In this document: positions 25,483-64,000 of the stretch, one piece after another
How positions within the stretch are numbered: position 1 is the stretch's first letter
How the letters are laid out: the number at the start of each line of letters is the position of its first letter
DNA from: Pyrococcus furiosus DSM 3638
GTDB taxonomy: Archaea; Methanobacteriota_B; Thermococci; Thermococcales; Thermococcaceae
Direction of reading: 5' to 3'
Assembly: GCF_000007305.1 (NCBI RefSeq)
Contig: NC_003413.1
Coordinates: 1,844,257-1,908,256 of the forward strand
DNA length: 64,000 nt
Notes under the pieces: generated by a model
Database searches by the model: none
What the model was told of the DNA's origin: nothing
The model's input: only the letters and a program-made list of their open reading frames with translations
Translations under genes and position numbers: made by a program

Positions 25483-25533
25483 TGTTCCTCTTAACCGAAA
25501 GCTTTAAATATTTTCGTGAATAATTGTGAGTGT

Positions 25534-26163
25534 ATGGTAGTAAAAGAGAAACTCTACACGGTAAAGCAGGCAAGTGAGATACTCGGCGTCCACCCAAAGA
25601 CAATCCAAAAATGGGACAGAGAAGGGAAAATCAAAACCGTTAGAACACCCGGCGGGAGAAGAAGAATACCAGAAAGCGAAATAAAAAGACTCCTCGGAAT
25701 AAGCGAGGAAAAAGGCCTAATCATCGGCTACGCAAGGGTATCAAGCCACACACAAAAAGACTACTTAGAAAGACAAGTCAAAGCAATAGAGCAATACGCA
25801 AAAGAACGTGGGTGGCAAGTCCAAATACTCACGGACATCGGCTCAGGATTGAACGAGAACAGGAAAAACTACCGCAAACTCCTCGAACTCGTGGCAAAGA
25901 GAGAAGTCTCAAAAGTCATCATCACCCATCCCGACAGGCTTACACGCTTTGGCTTCAAAACTCTCGAATTCTTCTTCAAGGAGAACGGTGCAGAGATAAT
26001 CATTATCACCGACAAAGAAAAATCCCCACGAGAAGAACTCATTGAAGACTTAACAACCATAATCTCACACTTTGCTGGGAAACTCTACGGAATGCGCTCC
26101 CACAAATACAAAAAGCTCAAAGAAGGCGTAAAAAAACTAATCGAGGAGGTCGAGAATGGGTAA
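25534..26163 (+). CDS. tnpA: IS607-type serine recombinase TnpA
   Basis: 209 residues. The N-terminal MerR-like helix-turn-helix ([25 protein letters not shown], then [12 protein letters not shown]) precedes a short serine recombinase domain ([19 protein letters not shown] with the catalytic Ser in RVSS, and HPDRLTRFG). The DNA-binding domain before the catalytic domain is typical of IS607. ATG 25534 is chosen; an in-frame GTG at 25516 adds only six residues. It overlaps TnpB by 8 bases. Confidence 0.93.
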
Positions 26164-27409
26164 AATTGTCTTAACATACAGAATGCCCCACAACTGGAAC
26201 ATTAATCCCTTCCTCAAGGAATACCAGAGACTCCTCCAGAGGGCAATTGACGAAATATGGGATAACACGAGTTGGAAGGAAAAGAAGGTTAAGCATAGAT
26301 ATTCTCTCGGAAACGAGGAATACCGGTACTACGAGACAATCCGCCTAATCCCATATTTTCCACAATCAAACGATTTTAAGCGAGGGCTGAGGAATAAACT
26401 CCTCCGAGAATGGCCTTTTGCTAAGCACTACGTTGATTCTGCAATAAAGACTGCTTACTCAATCCTCAAAAGCTGGAGGCAGAACTACCTCAAGGGGAGA
26501 AGAAAAAGAGTGAAACCAGTCGTTAAGAGGAAGTTCGTGAGGGTTAAAACAACACTAATGAAGGTTGAAGGCTCGAAAATCAGAATAACAATTAAACCGA
26601 GGGAAGAATACCTTGAACTGGACTTCTCAAGGGAGTGGTTTTATGAGAGGATTAAGGATTGGAAAGTTGGCGAGTTAATAATCAGGGAGAGGGATATCTT
26701 ATTAACCTTCTCAAAGGAGGTTGAGTTCTCTGGAAGAATCAAAATCGGCATTGACAGTAACTTAACGAGCCTTGACGTTTATCACCCTGAAAAGGGCTGG
26801 ATTAGAGTGGACTTGAGCGAACTGCATAGAATTTCCGAGACTTATGATAGAATTATTGATATGCTAAAAAGCATTCAGCGGAAAGCTCCAAAGAGGATTG
26901 GTTTATTGCTTGAGAAATACTGGACTAGGAGGAGGAACAGGATTGAGGATTACTTGAACAAACTCGCAGTCCAGCTTTCGAGGGAGTTCCCCGATGCGAT
27001 TTTCATCTTCGAGGGTTTGAACAAGTTTAAAATGCTCCAGAATGGTTCGAGAAAGTTTAACAGGAAGCTTTCCCGTGCCACTTGGAAGAAGATTGTTGGA
27101 AAGCTTTCTTATCGTGTTCCTATCGAGTTTGTTAATCCTGCTTATACTTCCTCCACCTGCCCGATATGTGGGAGTAAGTTAGAGTCCCGAAACGGGCTGG
27201 TGGAGTGTTTTAACTGTGGGTTTAAGGCGGATAGGCAGTTTGTTGGTGCTTTTAATATTTTGATGCGGGGACTTGGGGTCGCCCTGAGCGGGGTTGAGCG
27301 TGATGATTTGCCCCCCAATGAACCCAGAGGGGAGCTGAACGCGATGAGGCCCAAGTCCGTCGTGAGGGTTGACTTGAATGGACGAAGATTTACTCACATT
27401 CACTCATAA
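26156..27409 (+). CDS. tnpB: TnpB RNA-guided nuclease-family protein
   Basis: 417 residues. RuvC-like catalytic residues are all present: Asp in [11 protein letters not shown] (about 200), Glu in IFEGLNKFK (about 285) and Asp in [10 protein letters not shown] (about 360), with a C4 zinc finger between the last two (CPICG, CFNCG). TnpB proteins are ancestors of Cas12 and cut DNA guided by an RNA from the element's 3' end. The gene starts inside TnpA and is transcribed with it. Confidence 0.93.
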
Positions 27410-33484: not shown

Positions 33485-34266
33485 GATACTGTCAGGATAA
33501 CTGGGGCATCACCTCTTGAAGCCACTCAGTCACATCACCAGGCGGACAACCAAACCGAGAATGAAACCTAACAAAATTATACCAGAACGCAAACAGAAAA
33601 ACAAACCTGTGAACCCTCCTCCAGTCTCTAGCCCTGAAATTATTCCAGAAACGCTTTGTTCTTTCTTTTAAAGTCCTGAACCAGCGTTCAATACAGTTCC
33701 TCGGCCCGAAGGTTACGTGAACAAAATCCAGTCCAAGGGATTTAAAAGCAGACTTGTACCACTTCCCACCATCAACCAGAAAAACAGGCTGTCCTTTGCA
33801 GGATTTCAAAACAACCAGAATGAAGTCTCTAGCAATCCACCAGTTTCTGGTTGTTGTAATCCAGACTGCGAGAACTTCCCTGCTCTCAACGTCAAGTGCA
33901 GCCCAGAGAAATCTCTTCTCCCCGTTGATTTTTACGACAGTCTCATCAACTGCGATAAAATTCCTCTGTTTTCTTACTGCGAGGAGTGTTGGCTGGTAAA
34001 CTGCTTCTGCTAGTTTTTGAACTGCCTCCCAGACTGTTGTGTGGCTGATTTTGAGGATTTTTCCGACTTGTCTGTAGCTGAGGCCTCGCAGGTATAGTTC
34101 TACTGCTCTGATTTTCTTTTCTGGTGGGATTTTGTTGCGGCGAAAAGGTTTTAAGACTGAAATCAGTGAGTATAGAATGCTCTCAGCCTTCATTTCTCTC
34201 CCTTCTTTTTCTGAAAAATTATCAGAAACTTAAACCTAACGCCCTACCGCTTATCCTAACAGTATC
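33485..34266 (-). mobile_element. complete IS6-like insertion sequence with 8-bp target duplication
   Basis: Terminal inverted repeats GATACTGTCAGGATAA (33485-33500) and, on the other strand, GATACTGTTAGGATAA (34251-34266) differ by one base. An exact 8-bp duplication CCAGAATC flanks both sides (33477-33484 and 34267-34274). The 782-bp size and single transposase gene match the short IS elements known from P. furiosus. The intact duplication means the insertion is recent. Confidence 0.95.
33492..34193 (-). CDS. IS6-like DDE transposase
   Basis: 233 residues. An N-terminal HTH (RAVELYLRGLSYRQVGKIL, then SHTTVWEAVQKL) precedes the DDE domain: FIAVDETVVKINGEKRFLWAALD (first Asp), VFLVDGGKWYKSAFKSLG (second Asp) and CIERWFRTLKERTKRF (Glu). 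The frame is intact. Transcription runs toward taw3, so read-through could express that gene. Confidence 0.93.
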   Translation of the reverse strand: MKAESILYSLISVLKPFRRNKIPPEKKIRAVELYLRGLSYRQVGKILKISHTTVWEAVQKLAEAVYQPTLLAVRKQRNFIAVDETVVKINGEKRFLWAALDVESREVLAVWITTTRNWWIARDFILVVLKSCKGQPVFLVDGGKWYKSAFKSLGLDFVHVTFGPRNCIERWFRTLKERTKRFWNNFRARDWRRVHRFVFLFAFWYNFVRFHSRFGCPPGDVTEWLQEVMPQLS

Positions 34267-50318: not shown

Positions 50319-52488
<2,170 letters not shown>

Positions 52489-52491
52489 TTA

Positions 52492-52542
52492 CATCACCTC
52501 CATGGTGACGGCCAGCCTAAGGCCAGCCGGTCCCTTTCGGCG
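52492..52542 (-). promoter_or_regulatory. structured 5' leader of S15 mRNA
   Basis: Minus strand. Hairpin I: CGGCTGGCC - tta - GGCTGGCCG (52509-52529), 9 pairs with tandem U-G/G-U wobbles in the middle. Hairpin II: GTCACC - atgga - GGTGAT (52493-52509), whose 3' arm is the ribosome binding site GGAGGTGAT. ATG follows 4 bases later. A hidden ribosome binding site behind a conserved stem is the layout of ribosomal-protein autoregulation. A near-identical copy lies at 53673-53717. Confidence 0.6.
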
Positions 52543-52828: not shown

Positions 52829-53287
52829 TTATAACGGTGAATCAATAACTTCGAGAAAATTAACTTTCTTAAAGTCTTCATCAAAGGTTGCTATTTTCTT
52901 AATTCCATAATATTTACAAGTGGCAGCTATTATCGCATCGTTGGTTAAAAGAGCGTATTTTTCCCAATTTCTGCGGATAACTTTAGTATTTCCCAGTTGA
53001 CTTCAACTATCCTTAAAAGTTCATTCTTCATCAGTTGTTCAATTGATTCCTTGACTTTCCCATAAACCCAACTATATCTATTCAAATGCTTTTTGAGATC
53101 ATAAACACCCTTCAATCCATCTCGAAGGGCCAGGTAAACATAACCTTATAAGCCGTTTCAGAGAAAACGACTGGACTAAGGTAAGGCCTCTTTCAATTAA
53201 CGACTTTACTAATGCTTTTGCCTTTTCATCACCAAGGTTTAATCCTACCAGAACAGAAGAATCTACAAAGAGTTCAAAGTGATTCAT
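52829..53287 (-). pseudogene. VapC-like PIN-domain toxin, frameshifted
   Basis: A PIN-domain ribonuclease toxin broken by about three single-base shifts. The start is intact: MNHFELFVDSSVLVGLNLGDEKAKALVKSLIERGLTLV. A shift near 53180 moves the frame to VVFSETAYKVMFTWPFEMD, a second near 53112 to KGVYDLKKHLNRYSWVYGK and onward through VEVNWEILKLSAEIGK, and a third near 52973 to ALLTNDAIIAATCKYYGIKKIATFDEDFKKV. The PIN acidic residues (VDSS, SET, TNDAII, TFDEDF) are all still visible. It starts 13 bases into the antitoxin gene's end. Confidence 0.85.
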
Positions 53288-53471
53288 AGTAAGCCTCCTT
53301 AAGCTTCTTATAATCTATACCCTCAACTTTCTCGATAACCATGGAATCCAAGATTTTCTCAAGCTCCTCCTCATCAATTATCTTGATGATGACCTTTGAG
53401 TGCTCTTTAAGCTTTAGCTTTTTTAGAGGTTTCAAAACTCCATCCTCATAAATTGCCTCAATGACCTGCAT
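53274..53471 (-). CDS. AF2212-type (DUF104) antitoxin, VapB-like
   Basis: 65 residues: MQVIEAIYEDGVLKPLKKLKL is the AbrB/AF2212-like N-terminus that pairs with PIN toxins, followed by KVIIKIIDEEELEKI and a helical tail. It is intact although its partner toxin is broken. It overlaps the toxin start by 14 bases, the standard order of VapBC operons. Confidence 0.85.
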   Translation of the reverse strand: MQVIEAIYEDGVLKPLKKLKLKEHSKVIIKIIDEEELEKILDSMVIEKVEGIDYKKLKEAYYESL

Positions 53472-53606: not shown

Positions 53607-53669
53607 CTAACTAGAACCTAAGATCCCTCCACTAATTAAAAGTGCAAAGAAGTGAAGTACTTTAGCCAT
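53607..53669 (-). CDS. 20-codon hydrophobic reading frame behind an S15-type leader
   Basis: MAKVLHFFALLISGGILGSS, preceded by GGAGGTGAT four bases from its ATG, the same spacing as in S15. It could be a hydrophobic micropeptide or the start of a lost gene; nothing else supports translation. About 140 bases separate it from the antitoxin gene downstream. Confidence 0.35.
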   Translation of the reverse strand: MAKVLHFFALLISGGILGSS

Positions 53670-53672
53670 TCC

Positions 53673-53717
53673 CATCACCTCCCGGGTGACGGCCAGCAAG
53701 TGCCAGCCGTCCCTTCG
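53673..53717 (-). promoter_or_regulatory. second copy of the S15-type structured leader
   Basis: Minus strand. Hairpin I: CGGCTGGC - actt - GCTGGCCG (53690-53709) with the same U-G/G-U tandem as the S15 leader. Hairpin II: GTCACC - cggga - GGTGAT (53674-53690), again with a 5-base loop and the ribosome binding site in the 3' arm. The loops differ in sequence from the S15 copy while the stems agree. Confidence 0.6.
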
Positions 53718-53866: not shown

Positions 53867-55570
53867 TTAATTCACTATCACCTTCATTCCATCTACGCTG
53901 TATTCTTTATTCTCATTTATCATCCATTCGTTTGGGTCGAGGATTATCTTTAGGGGCTTATCATTTATCTCAAAACTAACCTTTGCTTTTCCTTTAATCC
54001 AAACTTTCTTGACAAATTTTTCTTTTGAAGTTATTATCTCAACCTCAAGGGGCATTGTAAAATTGCTCTTGTCAATAATGTCAAAGCTCACTATATATTT
54101 TCCATTCTTTTGGACTAGACTTAAGTTTTCAATCTTGTAATTGGGCACCTTTGTAGTGTAAAACCATTCTTTGAAGAACCAATCCAAATCTTGTCCACTG
54201 ACTTTTTCAAAAATATCTTGAACATCAGTTAAATTGCATTCTTTACCATGACACTCCCTCAAAAGTTCCCTTAGCCCTTTAAAGAAAATCTCATTACCAA
54301 GAACAAACTGCAGAGAACGGAAGACAAAAGCACCTTTGTAGTACACCATTCCTTCTGCGTGTGGATTGAACACGTCTTCCGTATAAACTTGTGCTAAGGT
54401 GTAGGTGGAATTAATTAAAGGAGAATGTTCTACAAAATTAAGCACTTCATAAGAATTCATGGACATTATAGCAAGATAATTTGCTAATGTTTCATCCATC
54501 CTACCAAAAGATGCATAATCACCGAACCAAGAGTGGGCAATTTCATGAGCGAGGAGGAGAGTCTCATTTCTTTTAGGATGGATTAATATAACTCCTTGTG
54601 GGAACTCAAAACCCGCCTTAGTGTTTAAACTCTCCAGGTAAAAGATTTTGAGGCTGGAGTATGGATAACCTCCTAGAATTCTAGAATAACTCCTTACTAT
54701 TTTGGAGACAACATAAACAACGTCTTCTCTCTTTCTTCCCACCTGATACACATTAATTGTTATTCCTGAAAGATTTTTACGAATGAGCGAGAAATTGCCC
54801 ACAATTATTAAGGGATCTCTTGAGTTTTTTGAGCTATACACAAGAATATTTCCCTCTCTTGTTGATCCTTTGTAAATAACCTCCCAGAACCCTTCTCCTT
54901 TTTCGTCTATTACTACCCCTTCCCAACCCTTGGGAACCTTCAGGCGTATTTGTGATTCATAGCTTTCAAAAGTTTCTAGTTCCCTCAATAGCCACATGGA
55001 TGATAACACGAGTTCGTTTCCATCATAGGTTGTTCTGAAAATGCTCCAGCTTTCTCTCATTTCTATGTAACTTACAAAAGGCTCAAAGCGCATTACTTCG
55101 GCATGATACTCTATTGTTATATTCCCAATTTTATCTTTTGGTATCTTTAAAACGAGTACCAAGATATTTGCTTGAGGCATGGTGACTATTGAAACGTTCT
55201 TAATAAAGCATCCTTTCGCTGTAATATTTCCAATAACAACTCTCTTAGGAAATATCAGTGATATTCTACTTGTGTCGCTTTCTCTAACGTTTTTTACTGT
55301 CAAAATTTTCTTCCCGTCCACTTCTAAACTTTTTTGAGAAGAAGGATTAATTGTGAGTTCTATATAAGATCTAACTTCAAGCTTGGAAAAGTTATGTGTG
55401 GTTAAATAAGTGACGCCATGAAAGGATGCATTTGATTTGGGAATGTCCTTTCCGTCAATTATTTGGAAATTTTCTAGATTGTTATTGTCATGAATAGTAA
55501 CATTTTTAAAAGTGAAAAATAATATAATGCCAATGCATATCAAAGTTATAAAAATTCTTCTCATTTTCAT
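53867..55570 (-). CDS. membrane-anchored M1-like zinc metalloprotease, copy 1
   Basis: 567 residues. One N-terminal hydrophobic segment (RIFITLICIGIILFFTF) anchors it, probably facing outside. A beta-rich front of about 280 residues precedes a gluzincin domain with LLAHEIAHSWFGDY (HExxH near residue 341) and DETLANYLA (third zinc ligand). The GAMEN exopeptidase motif of M1 is replaced by GFEFPQG. The C-terminal 200 residues (YKGAFVFRSLQFVLGNEIFFKG onward) are almost identical to the other two copies. It follows the frameshifted maturase by 13 bases, so they are one operon. Confidence 0.88.
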   Translation of the reverse strand: MKMRRIFITLICIGIILFFTFKNVTIHDNNNLENFQIIDGKDIPKSNASFHGVTYLTTHNFSKLEVRSYIELTINPSSQKSLEVDGKKILTVKNVRESDTSRISLIFPKRVVIGNITAKGCFIKNVSIVTMPQANILVLVLKIPKDKIGNITIEYHAEVMRFEPFVSYIEMRESWSIFRTTYDGNELVLSSMWLLRELETFESYESQIRLKVPKGWEGVVIDEKGEGFWEVIYKGSTREGNILVYSSKNSRDPLIIVGNFSLIRKNLSGITINVYQVGRKREDVVYVVSKIVRSYSRILGGYPYSSLKIFYLESLNTKAGFEFPQGVILIHPKRNETLLLAHEIAHSWFGDYASFGRMDETLANYLAIMSMNSYEVLNFVEHSPLINSTYTLAQVYTEDVFNPHAEGMVYYKGAFVFRSLQFVLGNEIFFKGLRELLRECHGKECNLTDVQDIFEKVSGQDLDWFFKEWFYTTKVPNYKIENLSLVQKNGKYIVSFDIIDKSNFTMPLEVEIITSKEKFVKKVWIKGKAKVSFEINDKPLKIILDPNEWMINENKEYSVDGMKVIVN

Positions 55571-55583
55571 GTATGCTCACTAT

Positions 55584-56953
55584 TTATGTAATGTATTCTT
55601 GGAGGTTTAAATAAATATTCCTTTTATCTCCTAGTTTATGATAAAAACGTAATCCAGCTTCGCAATATGGATAAAGGATGCATCCTGGAGCATTTGGAGT
55701 GCCGTATTTCAATATCGACACAAACGCACAACCGCCCATACAAATTGGTAAAAGTTTACAATTTCTACACTTCTCAAATTCTAAAGCATCTCTTCCCCTA
55801 GCTTCATAGTAGAAAGGTGTTGGAGTAAATTCTCCCTCTTCGGTTATTTTTCCAATCCTGTATTTTTCGATTCCTATCATTTCCCAACAGGAATATACAT
55901 CCAAATATGGGTCAATTATATACGCATTTGGATTTTCATGCCCGCAATACATACTTCTCCCACGCGGTAGAATATATGATTTCTGAACTGGAAGATTGTA
56001 CTTCTGTGCACTTTGGTACAAATAATACAGTTTGTCAAATATTTCTCTTTCTTTAGATATAACTAAATCCTTCGGGTCTGAAAACCCTACTAGTCCAGGT
56101 CGTATAATTCCAAAAGCAATAGGAAATGTTATTTCATTTTCCTTTAAATACCTAAGCAACTGGGGAATACTATCCACATTGCTTTTATCTACATTGATTC
56201 TAAGACTAACATACCCTTTGTAATTAGATAATTTTTTCAAATTTTCAATAATAGTGTCAAAAGTGCCGGCACCATCTAAAGATTTTCTTCTATCGTCATG
56301 AACTTCCTTTGGTCCATCTAATGTTATTTGCAGACCACATCTGTATCTTATAATCTCATTTATTTTTCATCGTCTAACAAGGTACCGTTTGTGACCATGG
56401 CAAGGACATAATTTTTTATTAAGCCGCGTTTTTTCAGAGAATCTAGTTTTTTAAATACACATTTGCATCCTTCCCAATTCAAAAGAGGTTCTCCTCCATA
56501 TAAATTCACATTGAGGGTAGTAGGGTACTGCCGTATTTTTAAGAGTTTTGATAAAAATTTATCAAAAATTATATCAATATCTTTTTTAGTTAAATATCTG
56601 CTCCTACGTTTAAGATCCCCTTCATAACAATAAACACAAGCTAAATTGCACCTATATGTCATTATGAGAGTAAAAGTTATAACATTGCCAATTTCATTAA
56701 GGAATGAGAATTTTCTTCTTGCTCTTACTATATTGAGTTCATTAATATTTTTTGGTAATATGACTTTTGTTTCAAGAAACAGGTTTAGCATAGTTTTCGG
56801 GATTTTTAAATCATGAAGTTTATCGATATTTTCAATAAGATGTTTTGTCTCATCATCTACTTCAATTACACTTTCACTAAGGCTATTATAAAGCAACCAT
56901 TTATTATTATCAATTTTAAAAAATAAATTATATCGAGAAGGTTTATATTTCAT
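55584..56953 (-). pseudogene. radical SAM/SPASM peptide maturase, frameshifted copy
   Basis: Reads as one 456-residue maturase if one base is added in the A5 run at 56363-56367 (minus strand GATGAAAAATAAATG). Before the break: MKYKPSRYNLFFK, CNLACVYCYEGDLK (radical SAM Cys) and YGGEPLLNWEGC. After it: LQITLDGPKEVHDDRR, then the SPASM Cys set including YCGHENPNAYIIDP, CWEMIG, CRNCKLLPICMGGC and PGCILYPYC. All key Cys remain. It aligns closely with the intact copy at 60244-61662. Loss of function, slippage rescue or a sequencing error are all possible. Upstream is the 50-residue Cys peptide. Confidence 0.88.
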
Positions 56954-56998
56954 AGAGACAGCCCCCATTTAGTTTTAAACCAAGTGCAGCATGATGTA

Positions 56999-57151
56999 TT
57001 ATAGTACTGGTGGCATGCAAATACAGCGTTCAATACTGGCACATTTTGTCATACAGAGATTCTCTGGTCCTACACACTCACAAGGATAGTCGGGTTCAAT
57101 AGGGACAAATTCAAATATCAACTTCTTTCGGTATAATACCTCAAACTTCAT
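56999..57151 (-). CDS. 50-residue Cys-rich putative precursor peptide, copy 1
   Basis: Short gene starting MKFEVLYRKKLIFEFVPIE, followed by a Cys-rich core with six Cys at residues 24, 26, 33, 37, 43 and 45 and a short CICMPPVL end. GAGGAGG lies 8 bases before its ATG, a strong ribosome binding site. It directly precedes the (frameshifted) radical SAM/SPASM gene and shares CxCxGxxxLCxxxC with the peptide at 61722-61940. I infer a substrate of the maturase: an N-terminal leader without Cys, then a modified core. It has no signal peptide. Confidence 0.72.
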   Translation of the reverse strand: MKFEVLYRKKLIFEFVPIEPDYPCECVGPENLCMTKCASIERCICMPPVL

Positions 57152-57169
57152 TTTTCTGCCTCCTCAAGT

Positions 57170-57322
57170 TTTTTCATTCATTTTTTCGGTGAAACGATAA
57201 ATAAGTTTTACTGCAACTGATTTATAAATTCTCGAAACTTTTTTTATAAATGTTATGAAATCATAATCAAGGAAAAGAAGCAATGCTTATAAGTAACTTC
57301 ACCAATTTTAAACTGATGTAAG
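57170..57322. promoter_or_regulatory. divergent promoter region, copy 1
   Basis: Shared upstream region of peptide 1 (minus) and the permease (plus). It has two TTTATAAA boxes near 57221 and 57244, BRE-like CGAAAC, and a GCTTATAAGTAA box near 57285 about 30 bases before the permease start. About 150 bases here are clearly homologous to 61965-62122, including ATAAATAAGTTTTACTGCAA and AGCAATGCTTATAAGTAA. Confidence 0.65.
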
Positions 57323-58138
57323 ATGATGAATGTAGATAGGATAACAAGAAACGCTAAAGTAATTAAAGCATTCATTTTCATTCAGAAAGAAGTCTTCTTT
57401 TCAAGGAGGTTTGACTTGTTTCTTCAATTTATAAGTTTGAGTTTAAATATCCTATTTATTGGTATTTTTGCAAATCTAATTACAATCAACGCTGACATCT
57501 CCCAATATGGCACCGCAAACTATCTCGATTATCTTTTAATTGGCTCAATAATTCACAATCTCGTGTTTTTACCGAGAGGTAGCATCTCTTCATTTGTTTT
57601 GGGAAGAGTATTTCCAGTGTTGTATAATTCACCAGCTTCCTTAGCGGCCATTTTTATTGGAATCAACGCCTGGCGAATTTTATGGAACCTAGGCTTAACT
57701 CTGATAATAGCTACAGTTTATGTTATCTTTTTCGGGTTAACTATTCATCTTAACCTTGGCGTTGTAATTGTCATCTTGAGTGGCATCTTGCTGATTTTTG
57801 CTCTTGACATGTTTTCCGCAGGCTTTAGAATTGCCACCAAAGCGACTCAGGATCCATTAAATTGGTTTTTCAACATCACCGCCCAGCTTGTAAGTGGCTT
57901 ATACTTCCCACCAGAGGCATTGCCGAAATGGATTCAACCTTTATCAAAAATTCATCCAGAGACATATATCCTCAGAATGGGTAGACTAACAATGGGTGGG
58001 GATTATTCATTAACAGAAATCCTTCCAAGTTTACAAAGCATGCTAATTATAACGGTGGTAATGTTAGTTTTAGGCTATTTAATGTTCTCATGGGGCTTTA
58101 ATAAGGCAAGAGAACTAGGAACATTAGGACACATATAG
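57323..58138 (+). CDS. ABC-2-type permease
   Basis: 271 residues with six hydrophobic segments, preceded by a short cytosolic front (RITRNAKVIKAFIFIQKEVFFSRRFDLFLQF). FFNITAQLVSGLYFPPEALPKWIQPLSKIHPETYILRMGRL is the conserved ABC-2 transporter stretch near the last periplasmic turn. No ATP-binding subunit is encoded in the window, so the partner must be elsewhere. It diverges from the peptide/maturase operon and is followed by a winged-helix gene after 3 bases. It may export the modified peptide; this is inference. Confidence 0.85.
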   Translation: MMNVDRITRNAKVIKAFIFIQKEVFFSRRFDLFLQFISLSLNILFIGIFANLITINADISQYGTANYLDYLLIGSIIHNLVFLPRGSISSFVLGRVFPVLYNSPASLAAIFIGINAWRILWNLGLTLIIATVYVIFFGLTIHLNLGVVIVILSGILLIFALDMFSAGFRIATKATQDPLNWFFNITAQLVSGLYFPPEALPKWIQPLSKIHPETYILRMGRLTMGGDYSLTEILPSLQSMLIITVVMLVLGYLMFSWGFNKARELGTLGHI

Positions 58139-58141
58139 GGG

Positions 58142-58426
58142 GTGAATGGGACGAGGGTTCATCTGTTAAAAGCAGAATGTGAGAATGGGAGACTAACATT
58201 GCTCATTAGAATAGAAATAGATCTTGAACACGCATATAAAGTGGAATTAACTAAGCTGGAAAGAGATGTCCTAGAATTTATACTTCGAAATGGTGAAGTT
58301 ACTCAAAAGAAGCTGGCTGAAATATTTGGGAGGGTTAAGACTTGTAGGATTATTAAAAACTTAGAAAAGAAGGGACTAATAGAAAGGAAGAAAAATGGAA
58401 GAACTTATATAGTGAAGGTAGTGTGA
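58142..58426 (+). CDS. winged-helix DNA-binding protein
   Basis: 94 residues. The C-terminal half is a winged helix of MarR/IclR style (KLERDVLEFILRNGEVTQKKLAEIFGRVKTCRIIKNLEKKGLIERKKNGRTYIVKV). The front (RVHLLKAECENGRLTLLIRIEI) is a short beta segment. It starts with GTG 3 bases after the permease stop and probably controls this cluster. Its end nearly meets the convergent protease gene. Confidence 0.78.
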   Translation: MNGTRVHLLKAECENGRLTLLIRIEIDLEHAYKVELTKLERDVLEFILRNGEVTQKKLAEIFGRVKTCRIIKNLEKKGLIERKKNGRTYIVKVV

Positions 58427-58431
58427 AATTG

Positions 58432-60186
58432 TTAATTCACAACTATAATTATCCCAGTTTCTCTCTCAATGTACTCTCTATTCTCATTCACCATCCATTC
58501 GTTTGGGTCGAGAATTATCTCTGTGGGCTTTTCATTAAGCTCAAACTCTACCCTTGCACTCCCATTAACCCAGATTTTCTTAATGAAACTCTTTGTTGGA
58601 GTTTTTACTTCAACTTCAAGTGGCATTGTGAAGTTACTCTTATCTGCAATCTCAAAGCTCAGAGCATACTCTCCATCCTTTTCCTCCAAGCTTAGGCTTC
58701 TCACGTAATAATTAGGAACTTTTGCAGTGTAAAACCATTCTTTGAAGAACCAATCTAAATCTTGTCCACTGACTTTTTCAAAAATACCTTGAACATCAGT
58801 TAAATTGCACTCTTTGTCATGACATTCCCTCAAAAGCTCCCTTAGCCCTTTAAAGAAAGTCTCATTCCCGAGCACGAATTGTAGGGAGCGGAAGACAAAA
58901 GCACCCTTATAATATTTAATGGCATTCCTAACTTGGGGATTGGAGATAACTTCTTTATAGGCCTGAATCAATGGTTTCCTGTATTGTGAAGAATATTTCA
59001 ATATTTGCCTTTCTGTGTAACCTAAGCTATAGCTGAGATATCCCGCATCACTTCCCATGAATGTAGCAAGACCTTCCTCAATTCCTGGAGTGAGATCAGT
59101 ATAACTTCCAAACCACAGATGAGCAACTTCATGTGCAAGGGTTGGTAAAATGTCTTCAATCCTTTTGCTATCTCGAATTCCAACAATTGCAATTCCTTTT
59201 CCAGAATCCTCAAATTCCTCTCCATTTCCAAATGGAAGATCTGGATGAAAAATTACGTTGATTTCGGAATAAGGGGGATCCATCAATCTATCTATGTAAT
59301 GCTTAATTATTTTTACAGTAGCGTTAGTAAGTTCCTTAGAATATAATCTCATATTGCTTGGAGCATAAATTACTAACCAAGTATTGTTGTCCCCTATTGT
59401 TAGTTTAGTTTCCTGGAAAAATCCTCTTTTATAAATATACACAGAACCCCATGGTTTGGAATTGTCAATTATTATAATCGTTTGATTATTCTTAGAGTTT
59501 ACTTCTAACGGGTACTCAGAGATTACTGCATACCTCGAAGGAAGAACAAGAACGATATTCCCCCGAGAAACTTTCCCAATTATCCCTGCAGGAGATACGG
59601 GGAAAACGAAATTCGGTGAAAAGTATATTGCATAAGGATAGTTTTCTGGATAATAAAAAGACTTGGAAAATTGAGCTACGTAATAGAGAAACAGAGAATC
59701 TATCGTCGTCTCATATTCCAGTGTTCCGAAGAGTGGTTTATCTTTTGAATATGTTAAATTCAGGAGAAATATCTTGACATTATAATCAGGCAATAAGTAA
59801 TAAGAGAGTCTCGATAAATTAACTTGCTGTTCTTCAAATGTGATATTCAAGTTACCAAAGTTTGGGGTTAATATGTAAATTATTGTACTATCTTGGGTTC
59901 TGTTTACGATCATGAAGTCCCATTTCAGCCTTAAATGATGATGTGTAATTGAGGTACTTACATTTCCAACCAGAGAATAATCCACTGAAATTCTCCTAAA
60001 AATATCATCTATTTCAGGTTCGTATATCACTTGCGCTTCTGCTTGTAAAGGATATTCAACATGTAGTTCTGAATTTGCTTGCATTTGAGAAGAAGTTTTC
60101 TGCTCAGTTGGAATCCTGAGGCATCCACTAGGGAGTATGATGATAAAAGAAATGAAAATAACAATCACCTTTTTTCCAATCATCAT
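58432..60186 (-). CDS. M1-like zinc metalloprotease lipoprotein, copy 2
   Basis: 584 residues. The front VIVIFISFIIILPSGCLRIP ends in a lipobox (LPSGC), so it is likely a lipid-anchored extracytoplasmic protein. Zinc site LAHEVAHLWFGSY (HExxH near residue 355) and EEGLATFMG. A GAMEN equivalent is missing; the region reads GNGEEFEDSG. The C-terminal 200 residues match copies 1 and 3 almost exactly, the front differs strongly. It is third in the operon after peptide 2 and the intact maturase. Confidence 0.88.
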   Translation of the reverse strand: MMIGKKVIVIFISFIIILPSGCLRIPTEQKTSSQMQANSELHVEYPLQAEAQVIYEPEIDDIFRRISVDYSLVGNVSTSITHHHLRLKWDFMIVNRTQDSTIIYILTPNFGNLNITFEEQQVNLSRLSYYLLPDYNVKIFLLNLTYSKDKPLFGTLEYETTIDSLFLYYVAQFSKSFYYPENYPYAIYFSPNFVFPVSPAGIIGKVSRGNIVLVLPSRYAVISEYPLEVNSKNNQTIIIIDNSKPWGSVYIYKRGFFQETKLTIGDNNTWLVIYAPSNMRLYSKELTNATVKIIKHYIDRLMDPPYSEINVIFHPDLPFGNGEEFEDSGKGIAIVGIRDSKRIEDILPTLAHEVAHLWFGSYTDLTPGIEEGLATFMGSDAGYLSYSLGYTERQILKYSSQYRKPLIQAYKEVISNPQVRNAIKYYKGAFVFRSLQFVLGNETFFKGLRELLRECHDKECNLTDVQGIFEKVSGQDLDWFFKEWFYTAKVPNYYVRSLSLEEKDGEYALSFEIADKSNFTMPLEVEVKTPTKSFIKKIWVNGSARVEFELNEKPTEIILDPNEWMVNENREYIERETGIIIVVN

Positions 60187-60243
60187 AACTTCCCACCATT
60201 TTGTTTCGATGTATTGTCATCATTATTAAAAATAAATAATGTA

Positions 60244-61662
60244 TTAAGTATTGAACATTATACGATTTTTGGTTTGTTCATCTCTATTTGGAACTCTCCC
60301 TAAGTTCTCTATTAGAGTTTCCTTGCTAAATAGGTTGGGATACTTCTTCATTAGATAAAATTTTAATCCTTCTTTCCAAATATATTTATTTATGTCACAT
60401 CCTGGACCATTGGGATGTCCATTTTTTCGAATTGACTCCATTGCACATCCACCCATGCAAACTGGCAAAAGTTTGCAATTCTTGCACTCATCATATTCTG
60501 TAGGATCCCTAGATTTCGCATCATAATAAAATGGAGTAATTTTCATTGTTCCATCTTTCTGTATTTCCCCAATTTGATAATCCTCAATTCCAACCATCTC
60601 CCAACACGGATATACCTTTAATTCTGGGTCAATAACGTATCCAAATGGATTGTCATATCCGCAATAAATGAATCGTAAGTTAGGTCTAGTCCAAACCTCG
60701 AATCCTCGCCTGTAAGCTTCTTTCCAAAGATATGGGAGATACTTCTGAAGATCGCTCCCAGAAAAGTAAACACCGCAGTTGGAACTACAATAAGGAAGAT
60801 TTCCTCTCACAATTCCATAGGAAATTGGTATACCTCCTAGACCCTCATCCTTTAAGAAGTCTAACAATTCTGGGATTTTTTTATAGTTTGTTTTGTCAAC
60901 ATTTATTCTTAATGCCAAATGGAAGTTTTTATTAGCTATTCTCCGATTTAAAAGTTTTATATTTTCGATTATTTGATCAAATGTTCCCTCTCCATTTGAT
61001 TTTATTCTTCTTTTATCATGGATCTCTTTTGGACCATCCAATGTTATCTGCATTGAATATACGTTGTAGTTATTGATTGCGTCAACAATGTCCTCATTAA
61101 TTAGTGTTCCATTAGTGACAAAACCTGCTGAATAATCACGGATTTCTTTATTCTCTTTCATTTCTTCTAATCTTTGTAGTGTATATTCACATCCTTTCCA
61201 ATTTAAAAGAGGTTCTCCTCCATAGAAACTAACTGAGATTGTTGGTTTTTTGTCTCCTTGTGCATGAGCACTTGCAAAAGTGAGTATTGTCTCAATTTTC
61301 TCTCGGGTTAATAACCCACCTTTGCTTTTTATATCTCCTTCATAACAGTAGGGACATCTCAAATTACAAGAATATGTCATTACTAAAGTCAGTCCAATAC
61401 TTAAATAATGTAGAAGTTGTCCATAATACATCATTCTTGTAAGTTTAATGATATTAAGCTCGTTTAGTTCTTTGTTAACTATTATTCCTTCAGAAATCAT
61501 CTTATTTAACAAGTCTGGAGGCAATTTATTAAACGTTTCATTTTCCAAGATTTCTTTTGTTTCAATATCACACTTAGCTATTATGTTTCTCAATGTGTTA
61601 AATGATATAACTTCTCGTTTTCTTTCGATGAACAAATTATATTTAGAGGATTTATACGACAT
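60244..61662 (-). CDS. radical SAM/SPASM peptide maturase, intact copy
   Basis: 472 residues. The front (SKYNLFIERKREVISFNTL ... LLNKMISEGIIVNKELNEL, about 90 residues) looks like the peptide-recognition region in maturases of this kind. The radical SAM core holds CNLRCPYCYEGD (near residue 100), SFYGGEPLLNWKGC and MQITLDGPKEIHDKRR. The C-terminal SPASM domain has YCGYDNPFGYVIDP, CWEMVGIEDY, CKNCKLLPVCMGGC and GPGC, ligands for two more Fe-S clusters. Such enzymes make thioether or C-C links in peptides. The ATG follows GGAGGG. It lies between the Cys-rich peptide and the protease. Confidence 0.92.
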   Translation of the reverse strand: MSYKSSKYNLFIERKREVISFNTLRNIIAKCDIETKEILENETFNKLPPDLLNKMISEGIIVNKELNELNIIKLTRMMYYGQLLHYLSIGLTLVMTYSCNLRCPYCYEGDIKSKGGLLTREKIETILTFASAHAQGDKKPTISVSFYGGEPLLNWKGCEYTLQRLEEMKENKEIRDYSAGFVTNGTLINEDIVDAINNYNVYSMQITLDGPKEIHDKRRIKSNGEGTFDQIIENIKLLNRRIANKNFHLALRINVDKTNYKKIPELLDFLKDEGLGGIPISYGIVRGNLPYCSSNCGVYFSGSDLQKYLPYLWKEAYRRGFEVWTRPNLRFIYCGYDNPFGYVIDPELKVYPCWEMVGIEDYQIGEIQKDGTMKITPFYYDAKSRDPTEYDECKNCKLLPVCMGGCAMESIRKNGHPNGPGCDINKYIWKEGLKFYLMKKYPNLFSKETLIENLGRVPNRDEQTKNRIMFNT

Positions 61663-61721
61663 CTATTTCCCTCCACATCTTCAATTGAGAAATAACAAAA
61701 CAAAAAACAAACGATTAGTAG

Positions 61722-61940
61722 TTAATAACAGACACAATATTCGCACTGCTGGTTACACTCACAATCTATTCCGATACAGAAACCCGTTGGAATAAATACG
61801 GCGATACACTTAGGTATGCAAACTCCTGGGCAATATAGACTGCAATCATCTCCGCAAAGACTCGATCCTCCATAACAGGTACATGAGAGGTTTCCAGTAA
61901 TTCCTTCTCCTGAACCTTTTTCTATGATCTCAAACTCCAC
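61722..61940 (-). CDS. 72-residue Cys-rich putative precursor peptide, copy 2
   Basis: The front (FEIIEKGSGEGITGNL) has no Cys; the rest holds 13 Cys, many as CxC or CxxxC pairs (SCTCYGGSSLC, DDCSLYCPGVC, IDCECNQQC, ending CEYCVCY). I take GTG 61940 as start because GGTGAT ends 4 bases before it; an in-frame GTG at 61949 would add three residues and is inside that site. It precedes the intact maturase by 59 bases and shares CxCxGxxxLCxxxC with peptide 1. Likely the maturase substrate. Confidence 0.78.
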   Translation of the reverse strand: MEFEIIEKGSGEGITGNLSCTCYGGSSLCGDDCSLYCPGVCIPKCIAVFIPTGFCIGIDCECNQQCEYCVCY

Positions 61941-61964
61941 CTCAATCACCCCAACAAGTTTTTC

Positions 61965-62122
61965 ACCTATATTTTTTGTTGAAACAATAAATAAGTTTTA
62001 CTGCAACTGATTTATAAACTCTTGAAACTTTTTTATAAATAGCATGAAACCATAATTAAAGAAAAAAAGAGCAATGCTTATAAGTAATTTCATTGATTTT
62101 TAATAATGAGTAGTGAGCAGTG
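61965..62122. promoter_or_regulatory. divergent promoter region, copy 2
   Basis: Homologous to 57170-57322, with the same order of TTTATAAA boxes and a GCTTATAAGTAA element. One side drives peptide 2; the other side now points only at the permease fossil. Agreement outside the TATA boxes indicates duplication of the whole region. Confidence 0.65.
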
Positions 62123-62173
62123 ATGAACGTTAATGCAGTAAACAGAAACGTTAAAGTCATCACTCGATTATAA
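62123..62173 (+). pseudogene. fossil start of a second ABC-2 permease
   Basis: ATG 62123 begins MNVNAVNRNVKVI, matching MNVDRITRNAKVI of the intact permease at 57326. After 13 codons the homology ends exactly where the third protease gene's stop codon (62160-62162) begins; the frame then runs TRL and stops. The rest of the permease and its winged-helix partner are absent. Confidence 0.75.
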
Positions 62174-63935
62174 TCTCTATTCCTTTAACGTTATCTTTTT
62201 TATTTTCATTTACCATCCATTCGTTTGGGTCGAGGATTATCTTTAGGGGCTTATCATTTAGTTCAAAACTTACCTTTGCTTCCCCTCTAATCCAGACTTT
62301 TTTAACGAGCTTTTCTTTTGGAGTTATTACCTCAACCTCAAGGGGCATTGTAAAATTACTCTTATCGACAATTTCAAAGGTCAATGAATATTTACTGTTT
62401 TTCTGCGTTACAGTTAGGTTTTTTACTTCATAATCAGGAACCTTAGCAGTATAAAACCATTCTTTGAAAAACCAGTCTAAGTCTTGTCCGCTAACTTTCT
62501 CGAAAACATTTTGAACATCAGTTAAATTGCACTCTTTACCATGACACTCTCTCAAAAGCTCTCTTAAACCTTCAAAGAAAGTCTCATTACCAAGAACAAA
62601 CTGCAGAGAACGAAAAACAAAAGCACCCTTATAATATTCAACACCAAGTCTCACTTGCGGGTCAAGTATTCCATCTTGGTAAACTTGGGCAAGAGGCATT
62701 CCGTAACGTTTGAAATTCCTTACTGCTCGATCTTCTCTTTCTTTCAAGTTTTCACCAGTAAGTTCACTCACATCAAATTCCATGAGTGTGGCGAGGCTTT
62801 CATCGAGCCGACCAAAGTGGACATAACTCCCAAACCATAGGTGGGCAAGCTCATGAGCAATTGTTGGTAAAATGTCCTCATTTCTCAAAAATCCATGATG
62901 TGCACGAAACCCGACGATTATAATGCCTTTCCCGAAATATTCAAACTCTTCTCCAAAGATAATGTCCGGATTAAAAAATACATTGATTTCTTGATAAGGA
63001 AGTATACTTAAGCGATCTACATAGTGCCAGACTATTTGTGCTGTGATATTTGCGAGTTCTTGAGCATTCAAGTAATTATTCTTTGGGCTGTAAATGATTA
63101 ATTTAATATTTCTAATAGTAATTTTGGTTTTCTGAAAAAGGTTTTGATTGTAAATGTAAATAAACCGGTAATTTGTTGGATTAGGTTTAACATTTTTGAA
63201 CATCACCACTAATTTTTCATCTTTATGCCATACTCTAGGTAAATAATAATCAGAGAGCACGATATAGTTTGAAGGTAAAATGAGGGTGAGATTATATATT
63301 TCTGGAATCGGGTTATAGAGGGAATTTGAGTTAACGAGAATTCCTACAGATGATATTGGAAGAAGCCATTCAGTTGAGAAAACTATTGTTGAAGGATATG
63401 TCTCAGGATAATAAATTGGAGAAAATTTCACAAAATCCCCAAGTATGTATTTAGTAAAAGAGGAGTTTATTGTTGTTTCATACTCTAGTGTTCCATGTAT
63501 TGGAATGCCTTTTGGATATGTTACATTCAAAAGTATTACTTGAGCATAATACTGAGGTAGTGAATAGCGAGAGAGTTTCGATATGTTTACTTGTACTCCT
63601 TCAACCACCATACTCAATCTACCAAAATTTGGAGACTTTATGTAGAGTACAGTATAATTTCCAGATCTATTCGTGATTATAAAATCCCACCTCACTTTTA
63701 AGTGATGATTGAGGGTAATTACAGTTATGTTTGCAATAACAGAATAATTCGTCAGAAAATAGGGAAAAGCTCCATATATACTTTTTTCTTCGACTTTTGA
63801 AGGATACTCAATGTAGAGTTGCAATTTCTCTTGTTTTGATGATGGGACCGGGTTATTACTCCATAGAATATATCCCACGGAAAGCACAAGAAAAGAGATA
63901 AGGAATACAGCAAGTGCTTTTCTTTTCATCAGCAT
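62160..63935 (-). CDS. membrane-anchored M1-like zinc metalloprotease, copy 3
   Basis: 591 residues. N-terminal anchor (ALAVFLISFLVLSVGYILW). Zinc site IAHELAHLWFGSY (HExxH near residue 359) and DESLATLMEF. GAMEN region reads FGEEFEYFGKG. Its C-terminal part is almost identical to copies 1 and 2, and its front resembles copy 2 more than copy 1 (GTLEYETTINSSF, LPYQEINVFFNPD). Its stop overlaps the permease fossil. Any peptide and maturase genes belonging to it would lie beyond the window's right edge. Confidence 0.88.
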   Translation of the reverse strand: MLMKRKALAVFLISFLVLSVGYILWSNNPVPSSKQEKLQLYIEYPSKVEEKSIYGAFPYFLTNYSVIANITVITLNHHLKVRWDFIITNRSGNYTVLYIKSPNFGRLSMVVEGVQVNISKLSRYSLPQYYAQVILLNVTYPKGIPIHGTLEYETTINSSFTKYILGDFVKFSPIYYPETYPSTIVFSTEWLLPISSVGILVNSNSLYNPIPEIYNLTLILPSNYIVLSDYYLPRVWHKDEKLVVMFKNVKPNPTNYRFIYIYNQNLFQKTKITIRNIKLIIYSPKNNYLNAQELANITAQIVWHYVDRLSILPYQEINVFFNPDIIFGEEFEYFGKGIIIVGFRAHHGFLRNEDILPTIAHELAHLWFGSYVHFGRLDESLATLMEFDVSELTGENLKEREDRAVRNFKRYGMPLAQVYQDGILDPQVRLGVEYYKGAFVFRSLQFVLGNETFFEGLRELLRECHGKECNLTDVQNVFEKVSGQDLDWFFKEWFYTAKVPDYEVKNLTVTQKNSKYSLTFEIVDKSNFTMPLEVEVITPKEKLVKKVWIRGEAKVSFELNDKPLKIILDPNEWMVNENKKDNVKGIEIIIE

Positions 63936-64000
63936 TCCCCCTCACTAAACAGTAGTTTTATTATCACTAATATACTCTCCTGCACTATTTAACTCAAGTG

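Follow-up and report, generated by a model that had tools for sequence, protein, structure and literature searches.

Gene order at the locus

The window analyzed here, a stretch of 64,000 nucleotides from Pyrococcus furiosus DSM 3638, ends in a gene cluster that resembles a locus for ribosomally synthesized and post-translationally modified peptides (RiPPs). On the minus strand, genes for a small peptide, a radical SAM/SPASM enzyme (the maturase) and an M1-like zinc protease stand in the same order twice (Table 1). Read in the direction of transcription, the elements are M1c, promoter block 2, pep2, mat2 and M1b, followed by promoter block 1, pep1, mat1 and M1a; the third protease, M1c, is present besides the two cassette proteases, and a divergent ABC-2 permease and winged-helix gene occupy the plus strand between the cassettes.

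The original prediction for this DNA had described such a peptide-maturase-protease order. Its genes and their arrangement are present, but mat1 is frameshifted, not intact. It had also spoken of a duplicated Cys-rich peptide: both peptide genes are in place but their products are barely alike (BLASTP E = 0.001), and therefore the gene order is repeated rather than the peptide. The divergent permease and winged-helix gene are likewise both found, but the permease has no adjacent ATPase in the window; relatives show the order permease, winged-helix gene, ATPase. That prediction contained neither the mat1 frameshift nor the shared promoter and recombination described below.

Table 1. Features of the two cassettes and their surroundings, in window coordinates.
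Feature	Position	Strand	Basis
M1a, M1-like zinc protease, N-terminal hydrophobic anchor, HEIAH	53867..55570	-	PF01433 E 2.3e-13; motif
M1a 3' protease block, DNA identity 84% to M1c block and 81% to M1b block	53903..54334	.	self-BLAST
mat1 C-terminal half (SPASM part), after frameshift	55584..56366	-	TIGR04085 2.3e-16
mat1 N-terminal half, radical SAM domain, frame stops at A-run	56360..56968	-	PF04055 1.3e-10
pep1, candidate precursor, 50 aa, 6 Cys	56999..57151	-	49 nt past promoter motif, Shine-Dalgarno-like site
Promoter block 1, divergent; motif 57201-57228 (minus strand); includes first permease codons	57165..57360	.	alignment, self-BLAST
ABC-2 permease	57323..58138	+	PF01061 8.5e-07
Winged-helix regulator, MarR/TrmB-like	58142..58426	+	profile match; adjoins permease in relatives
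M1b, M1-like zinc protease, lipobox-like SGC at residues 20-22, HEVAH	58432..60186	-	PF01433 1.9e-13
M1b 3' protease block; G079 identity climbs from ~76% to 100% within	58470..58905	.	self-BLAST, bin comparison
mat2, intact radical SAM/SPASM maturase, 472 aa	60244..61662	-	PF04055 6.1e-19; NF038107 347 bits; 5wgg E 1.6e-24
pep2 precursor, 13 Cys, leader MEFEIIEKGSGEGITGN; 72 aa from GTG 61940 or 75 aa from 61949	61722..61940 or 61722..61949	-	
Promoter block 2; motif 61991-62018 (minus strand); ends in relic of permease 5' end	61955..62157	.	alignment, self-BLAST
M1c, M1-like zinc protease; identical gene in G079 comes after TOMM cluster	62160..63935	-	PF01433 8.4e-15
M1c 3' protease block	62196..62627	.	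self-BLAST

Maturases and precursor peptides

The translation of mat2 contains CNLRCPYC, a CxxxCxxC motif, and matches the SPASM family PF13186 at E = 0.0059 (17.3 bits, below the cut-off of 21.5); the corresponding half of mat1 scores above the cut-off of the SPASM model TIGR04085. With a CxxxCxxC radical SAM motif, a C-terminal SPASM domain and a small precursor gene next to it, the enzyme is, by its sequence, a radical SAM/SPASM peptide maturase. The curated family that fits mat2 best is that of the peptide maturase CefB (NF038107, 347.1 bits), whose equivalog cut-off of 600 bits is reached neither by mat2 nor in any of 115 genomes, and the closest solved relative of mat2 by sequence is 5wgg, which we take to be CteB. 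The frame of mat1 is broken at the A-run near 56360 into frames of 202 and 260 aa. Programmed -1 frameshifting by slippage at this run is possible in principle, but decay is preferred because the G010 genome keeps just maturase remnants beside M1a, one of them of 57 aa and 80% like mat1. Cassette 1 is thus probably decaying, although the frameshift may instead be a sequencing error in the window; cassette 2, as read from its frames, is intact.

We compared the window with 94 genomes, the order to which G002 (a Thermococcus metagenome-assembled genome) belongs. Maturase matches at E ≤ 1e-25 occur in 19 of them, and eight carry a maturase at least 50% identical to that of the window: six whole (G079, G010, G001, G087, G002, G062), one broken (G061) and one a fragment (G075). 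A Cys-rich precursor lies directly upstream of the maturase in seven of the eight, as it does in the window; upstream of the G075 fragment there is none. The original prediction had allowed that relatives of the maturase in other Thermococcales might never adjoin Cys-rich small open reading frames (ORFs). They do so here, and its modified-peptide reading is well supported, both by this precursor with its conserved leader and by a SPASM enzyme whose best family is CefB.

The precursors of seven of the eight genomes share the leader F-x-I-[IL]-E-x-G-S-x-E-x-[ILV]-[AT]-G-N. Over 21 pairs from seven sequences, the leader is 74% identical vs. 51% for the core (38% when the Cys columns are removed). 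Between the window and G010, 12 of 73 aligned positions are changed in pep2 and 7 of 472 in mat2. Within the window, pep2 is the sole ORF of 25–110 aa with at least 9 Cys and at least 12% Cys (13 in 75 aa), and none of 60 dinucleotide shuffles of the window yielded an ORF reaching both values. At the Cys content of pep1, however, the window holds three such ORFs (shuffle mean 0.55, maximum 3), and its Cys count by itself does not set pep1 apart from chance; it is supported because it starts 49 nt past the promoter motif. Cys spacings in pep2 run from 2 to 10 and are mostly 2 and 4, and neither pep1 nor pep2 shows the CefA-like pattern of a Cys at every fifth residue.

Farther afield, a scan of named genomes gave five loci in 77 stretches, two from Thermococci and three from distant bacteria (29–32%). 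A plasmid scan gave 219 records matching mat2, all at less than 60% identity, the best two being Clo7bot-type maturases (33%). Beyond the order but within its phylum, two genomes (G114 and G115; L077-L083) encode CefB-like SPASM maturases, often as tandem pairs and scoring up to 388 bits; no permease or protease match was seen there among ORFs of at least 110 aa, and no Cys-rich small ORF was found. In G079, the middle of a fourth radical SAM gene, rS4 (L044:4642-5967), is read from the other strand, as if inverted within the gene; rS3 beside it is also broken.

A shared promoter block precedes unlike precursors

Alignment of the upstream regions of 23 sites revealed a conserved block of ~110 bp between the precursor and the divergent permease. 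Its pattern, TTTATAAATCNGTTGCAGTAAAACTTAT, with at most three mismatches, occurs at 23 sites in 17 of the 94 genomes; the reversed pattern, used as a control, has no site in these genomes. As judged by hand, 22 of the 23 sites adjoin permease, winged-helix or ATPase genes of this type or RiPP genes, the exception being a site in G089 that has an unrelated ABC transporter only. Where a precursor is listed (16 sites), it starts 48–53 nt past the motif. The permease itself is found in 18 of the 94 genomes, 78–90% identical over the matched part; 14 of these 18 have the pattern, and G062 has it with five mismatches.

Adding the two window sites and the G062 site gives 26, of which 24 (not G086 and G056:C6) have at least 2 kb of sequence downstream. 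There, by hand, we found a precursor at 21 sites, a whole or broken radical SAM gene at 20, and a zinc protease of the M1 or DUF4932 type at 19. Fifteen of these proteases are complete, a contig end truncates one (G001:C123, by eye), and three are broken (G025, G056:C7, G083).

The precursors behind the pattern fall into about nine dissimilar kinds, A to I. Kind A, with a leader ending in [AT]GN and 9–13 Cys, comprises pep2 and the precursors of G079, G010, G001, G002, G087, G062 and G061; kind B is pep1. Kind C has a Cys at every fifth residue (G025 and a second locus of G002), kind D has the form MKIEILKVENGK...CMTGCGGGG (G079 and G075, and G001:C123, where the leader is lost), and kind E is the precursor of a thiazole/oxazole-modified microcin (TOMM) cluster, ...IIIIACCCCGGGG (G079). 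Kind F has the form ...RGRCGK.PCGH (G003, G083), kind G comes as pairs with Y[VIL]PP.G (G069, G094), kind H has the form ...EILCWKC (G056:C7), and kind I is an ORF of 23 aa (G076). The second G010 site and the sites in G045 and G089 showed no precursor. Downstream of the motif in L055 and L056 are two successive small ORFs with an early Y[VIL]PP motif and, as far as they were read, no Cys, then a radical SAM gene; these may be a Cys-free RiPP kind.

The genes downstream of kind E score above the cut-offs of the SagB, SagC and SagD models (TIGR03605, TIGR03603 and TIGR03604). This G079 cluster (L054:1523-6640) consists of SagB, SagD and SagC, a further ABC ATPase and membrane protein, and the CCCCGGGG precursor, with the promoter motif ahead of it. 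With SagB, SagC and SagD and a Cys-rich core, this neighbor cassette is a TOMM cluster by gene content. The next gene on the same strand is M1c, whose protein is 100% identical to that of the window, and therefore one promoter block and one protease family are found with both a SPASM and a TOMM pathway.

FEII- or FEIL-like motifs recur in the leaders of kinds A, B, D, E, F, H and I, which we regard as a lead, not a test. A whole or contig-cut protease accompanies 13 of 16 loci with FEII-like leaders vs. 1 of 5 with other leaders, a count made by hand on sequences that are not independent.

Probable exchange of cassettes between species

We next compared the window with its relatives in 100-bp bins. 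Identity to G079 is 99–100% at 58.8–64.0 kb vs. 68–87% at 57.4–58.7 kb, with the change at ~58.7 kb, inside the M1b 3' block. Identity to G010 is 97–100% at 58.9–61.6 kb and 95% in the next bin, and falls to 80–92% in the precursor and promoter bins. When the two cassettes were aligned to each other (self-BLAST, E ≤ 1e-6), the matches were the two promoter blocks (80%), a 3' protease block of ~435 bp (80–84%), which is repeated in all three window proteases, and two short segments of 39 and 58 bp.

Other pairs of genomes differ by whole payloads. G083 and G079 share cassette D (99.7%) and the winged-helix gene and permease (99%), which lie on two contigs in G083; the interval from the winged-helix gene to the ATPase, however, contains cassette F and M1 remnants in G083 vs. 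cassettes E and A in G079. Similarly, the surroundings of the locus are 94–95% identical between G076 and G079, and the interior is 1.9 kb with the 23-aa ORF and one M1 gene in the former vs. 19.7 kb with three cassettes in the latter. The ATPase of G079 is not next to the winged-helix gene but lies past the TOMM cassette, and therefore the array sits between the winged-helix gene and the ATPase. By analogy with G079, a TOMM cassette and the ATPase are predicted to continue to the right of window position 64000. The alignments support the view that payloads would be exchanged whole by homologous recombination through two flanking homologies, the promoter block and the protease 3' block.

M1-like and putative DUF4932 zinc proteases

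All three window proteases match PF01433 (Peptidase_M1) above its cut-off over the catalytic region, and each has a hydrophobic N-terminal stretch. In bins of 60 residues, these paralogues are 18–34% identical at residues 1–300 and 61–79% at 421–591. The third zinc ligand of the M1 family is a Glu 18 residues past HExxH. HExxH is present in 13 of 13 aligned M1 proteins of this type; the Glu comes 13–14 residues later (by eye), not 18. M1b is presumably the protein named PF2063. A secretome study lists PF2063 as a predicted lipoprotein with Gly-Cys (PMC3824201).

Some other cassettes carry a DUF4932 protein (PF16286) instead; its HExxH suggests that this family, too, consists of zinc proteases, and one member had no solved relative that could be found by sequence. 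At E ≤ 1e-8, 59 of the 94 genomes encode DUF4932 proteins; 47 encode M1c-like proteins (E ≤ 1e-25, a count that includes distant M1 paralogues). Many of these genes lie outside the locus.

Surroundings of the cassettes

The G+C content of 2-kb bins is 33–36% from 54 kb onward vs. 39–45% before, except for 36% at 48–50 kb. The EF-2 gene of the window shares 87% identity with its G010 counterpart and only 80% with the one in G079, against ~100% identity to G079 over 58.8–64.0 kb. A duplicated second peptide seemed to be encoded by two small hydrophobic ORFs (57253-57381 and 62056-62163), but these were rejected because they overlap the antisense of the permease 5' end and of its relic, within the promoter blocks.

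A repeat of ~54 bp (85%) links 52484-52536, at the start of a ribosomal S15-like gene, with 53665-53715, downstream of M1a. Short ORFs adjoining the cluster at 53099-53471 are antitoxin-like and PIN/VapC-like; the toxin-like frame looks truncated by eye, and its G010 counterpart has 155 aa (L046 17683-18150). Elsewhere in the window, translations suggest by eye an IS607-like pair of serine recombinase and TnpB-like genes and an IS6-like transposase (25516-27409 and 33492-34193).

Discussion

The genomic comparison supports a two-cassette, recombining RiPP locus in the window: gene order, protein families, leader conservation, the shared promoter and recombination all have support in the sequences. 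On balance, we favor the fuller reading in which these are two cassettes of a polymorphic Thermococcales locus with the following mechanism and product. Pep2 would be expressed from the shared promoter block, and mat2 would bind the conserved leader and make radical-based links, most likely thioethers, on the Cys-rich core. The conserved permease and its ATPase, the latter lying beyond the window, would export the peptide, and a membrane-anchored M1 protease would cut off the leader outside the cell, as AplP does on class III lanthipeptides. The product would most likely be a narrow-spectrum archaeocin active against close relatives, as cassette turnover and transfer suggest; payload swaps among close relatives fit weapons aimed at relatives. 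We are evenly divided over a broader proposal, that Thermococcales harbor a class-independent RiPP cassette array as a ‘polymorphic weapon’ locus, where promoter/operator and 3' protease blocks act as homology handles. Species would swap, accumulate and lose complete pathways for unlike peptides (TOMM and several SPASM kinds) around a shared regulator, one exporter pair and extracellular zinc proteases that belong to two families and can replace each other.

Several observations weigh against the fuller reading. Mat1 is broken in the window, and maturases of 30–34% identity in G080 and G020 sit in another layout. The permeases of G017, G031 and G065 have no motif near them even at up to six mismatches, and 5 of 24 promoter sites (G002:C151, G003, G069, G089 and G094) lack a protease. 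Conversely, G045 (no peptide) and G076 (the 23-aa ORF) have a protease without a maturase, and therefore the protease may do something besides leader removal. Additional ABC pairs occur in several cassettes, and therefore the conserved permease may not be the exporter. Structure predictions of a DUF4932 protein (A3) and of M1c (A4) were too poor to help (mean pLDDT, the predictor's confidence score, 56 and 58).

One alternative keeps the RiPP locus but makes the anchored zinc proteases immunity or resistance factors that destroy incoming peptides and outlive the biosynthetic genes. It would account for the lone protease behind the promoter in G045, for the one that follows only a 23-aa ORF in G076, and for an M1a that is whole although its neighbor mat1 is broken in the window and only maturase remnants are left in G010; M1c-like genes are also more widespread than maturase matches (47 vs. 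19 of 94 genomes). However, the larger number takes in distant M1 paralogues, and the survival of proteases beyond maturases was judged by eye and is weak. Proteases are broken as well (G025, G056, G083 and the second one of G062), and cassettes tend to end with a protease of their own, as processing predicts; leader peptidases of the M1 family are also known. We consider an immunity role unlikely. Slightly less likely still, in our judgment, are metal-binding or signaling RiPPs rather than weapons, with proteases and transporter serving uptake or sensing. Such peptides would fit the very high Cys content of pep2 (13 in 75 residues) and the presence of a winged-helix gene in the operon, but the number of Cys in precursors behind the same promoter varies between 13 and zero, and payloads differ between close relatives, whereas a housekeeping metal peptide should be stable. 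Finally, the cluster could be a patchwork of unrelated genes, namely peptide-degrading proteases, an orphan SPASM enzyme and chance Cys-rich ORFs. Pep1 by itself is within chance for Cys count and mat1 is broken, but order, leader and promoter are conserved across species; the comparison already largely contradicts a patchwork, and we regard it as very improbable.

How does the locus relate to known systems? CefA/CefB (NF038107) is the closest by maturase family, and the sibling loci L053 and L057, which have the same permease, encode precursors whose 10 and 11 Cys follow one another at intervals of exactly five residues; mat2, however, lies far below the family cut-off, and the Cys residues of pep2 are not spaced by five. 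Ranthipeptides (SCIFF/CteB) and sactipeptides also pair a SPASM maturase with a Cys-rich precursor, but to our knowledge extracellular M1 or DUF4932 proteases and cassette exchange are not part of those systems. TOMM pathways share the SagB/SagC/SagD set and precursor with the G079 array, but that cluster, outside the window, has its promoter block and protease family in common with SPASM cassettes.

The original prediction did not recognize the pairing of a maturase with M1-like proteases. M1 proteases as such are established leader peptidases: AplP and MicP1/MicP2 are reported to remove leaders from class III lanthipeptides and lipolanthines, and AplP to cleave after E-(I/L)-(L/Q) (PMC10885120). 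The resemblance to the window extends to an M1 zinc protease in a RiPP pathway and to the many leaders with FEII/FEIL-like motifs. Unlike AplP, the window-type M1 proteins are N-terminally anchored, have a shorter spacing from HExxH to Glu and occur in both SPASM and TOMM cassettes, where they would cleave leaders by analogy. What did stand out is the union of SPASM or TOMM pathways with M1 or DUF4932 proteases in one exchangeable locus: in open-licence PMC articles, we found no description of it or of its modified peptides. Near-identical DNA in two genomes recalls a transfer of 16 kb between P. furiosus and T. litoralis, flanked by insertion sequences (PMC6640164). That transfer concerns another region, whereas the sole breakpoint seen here falls inside the M1b homology block. 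Each part of the locus is thus of a known kind; the combination and the cassette logic seem to be new.

Hyperthermophilic archaea have been little explored for modified peptides, and this locus offers tractable candidates for heat-stable, cross-linked peptides. If our reading is correct, the 28-base promoter motif would provide a class-independent hook for archaeal RiPP precursors that profiles miss, and the locus would allow one to test how archaea fight their relatives and exchange weapons.

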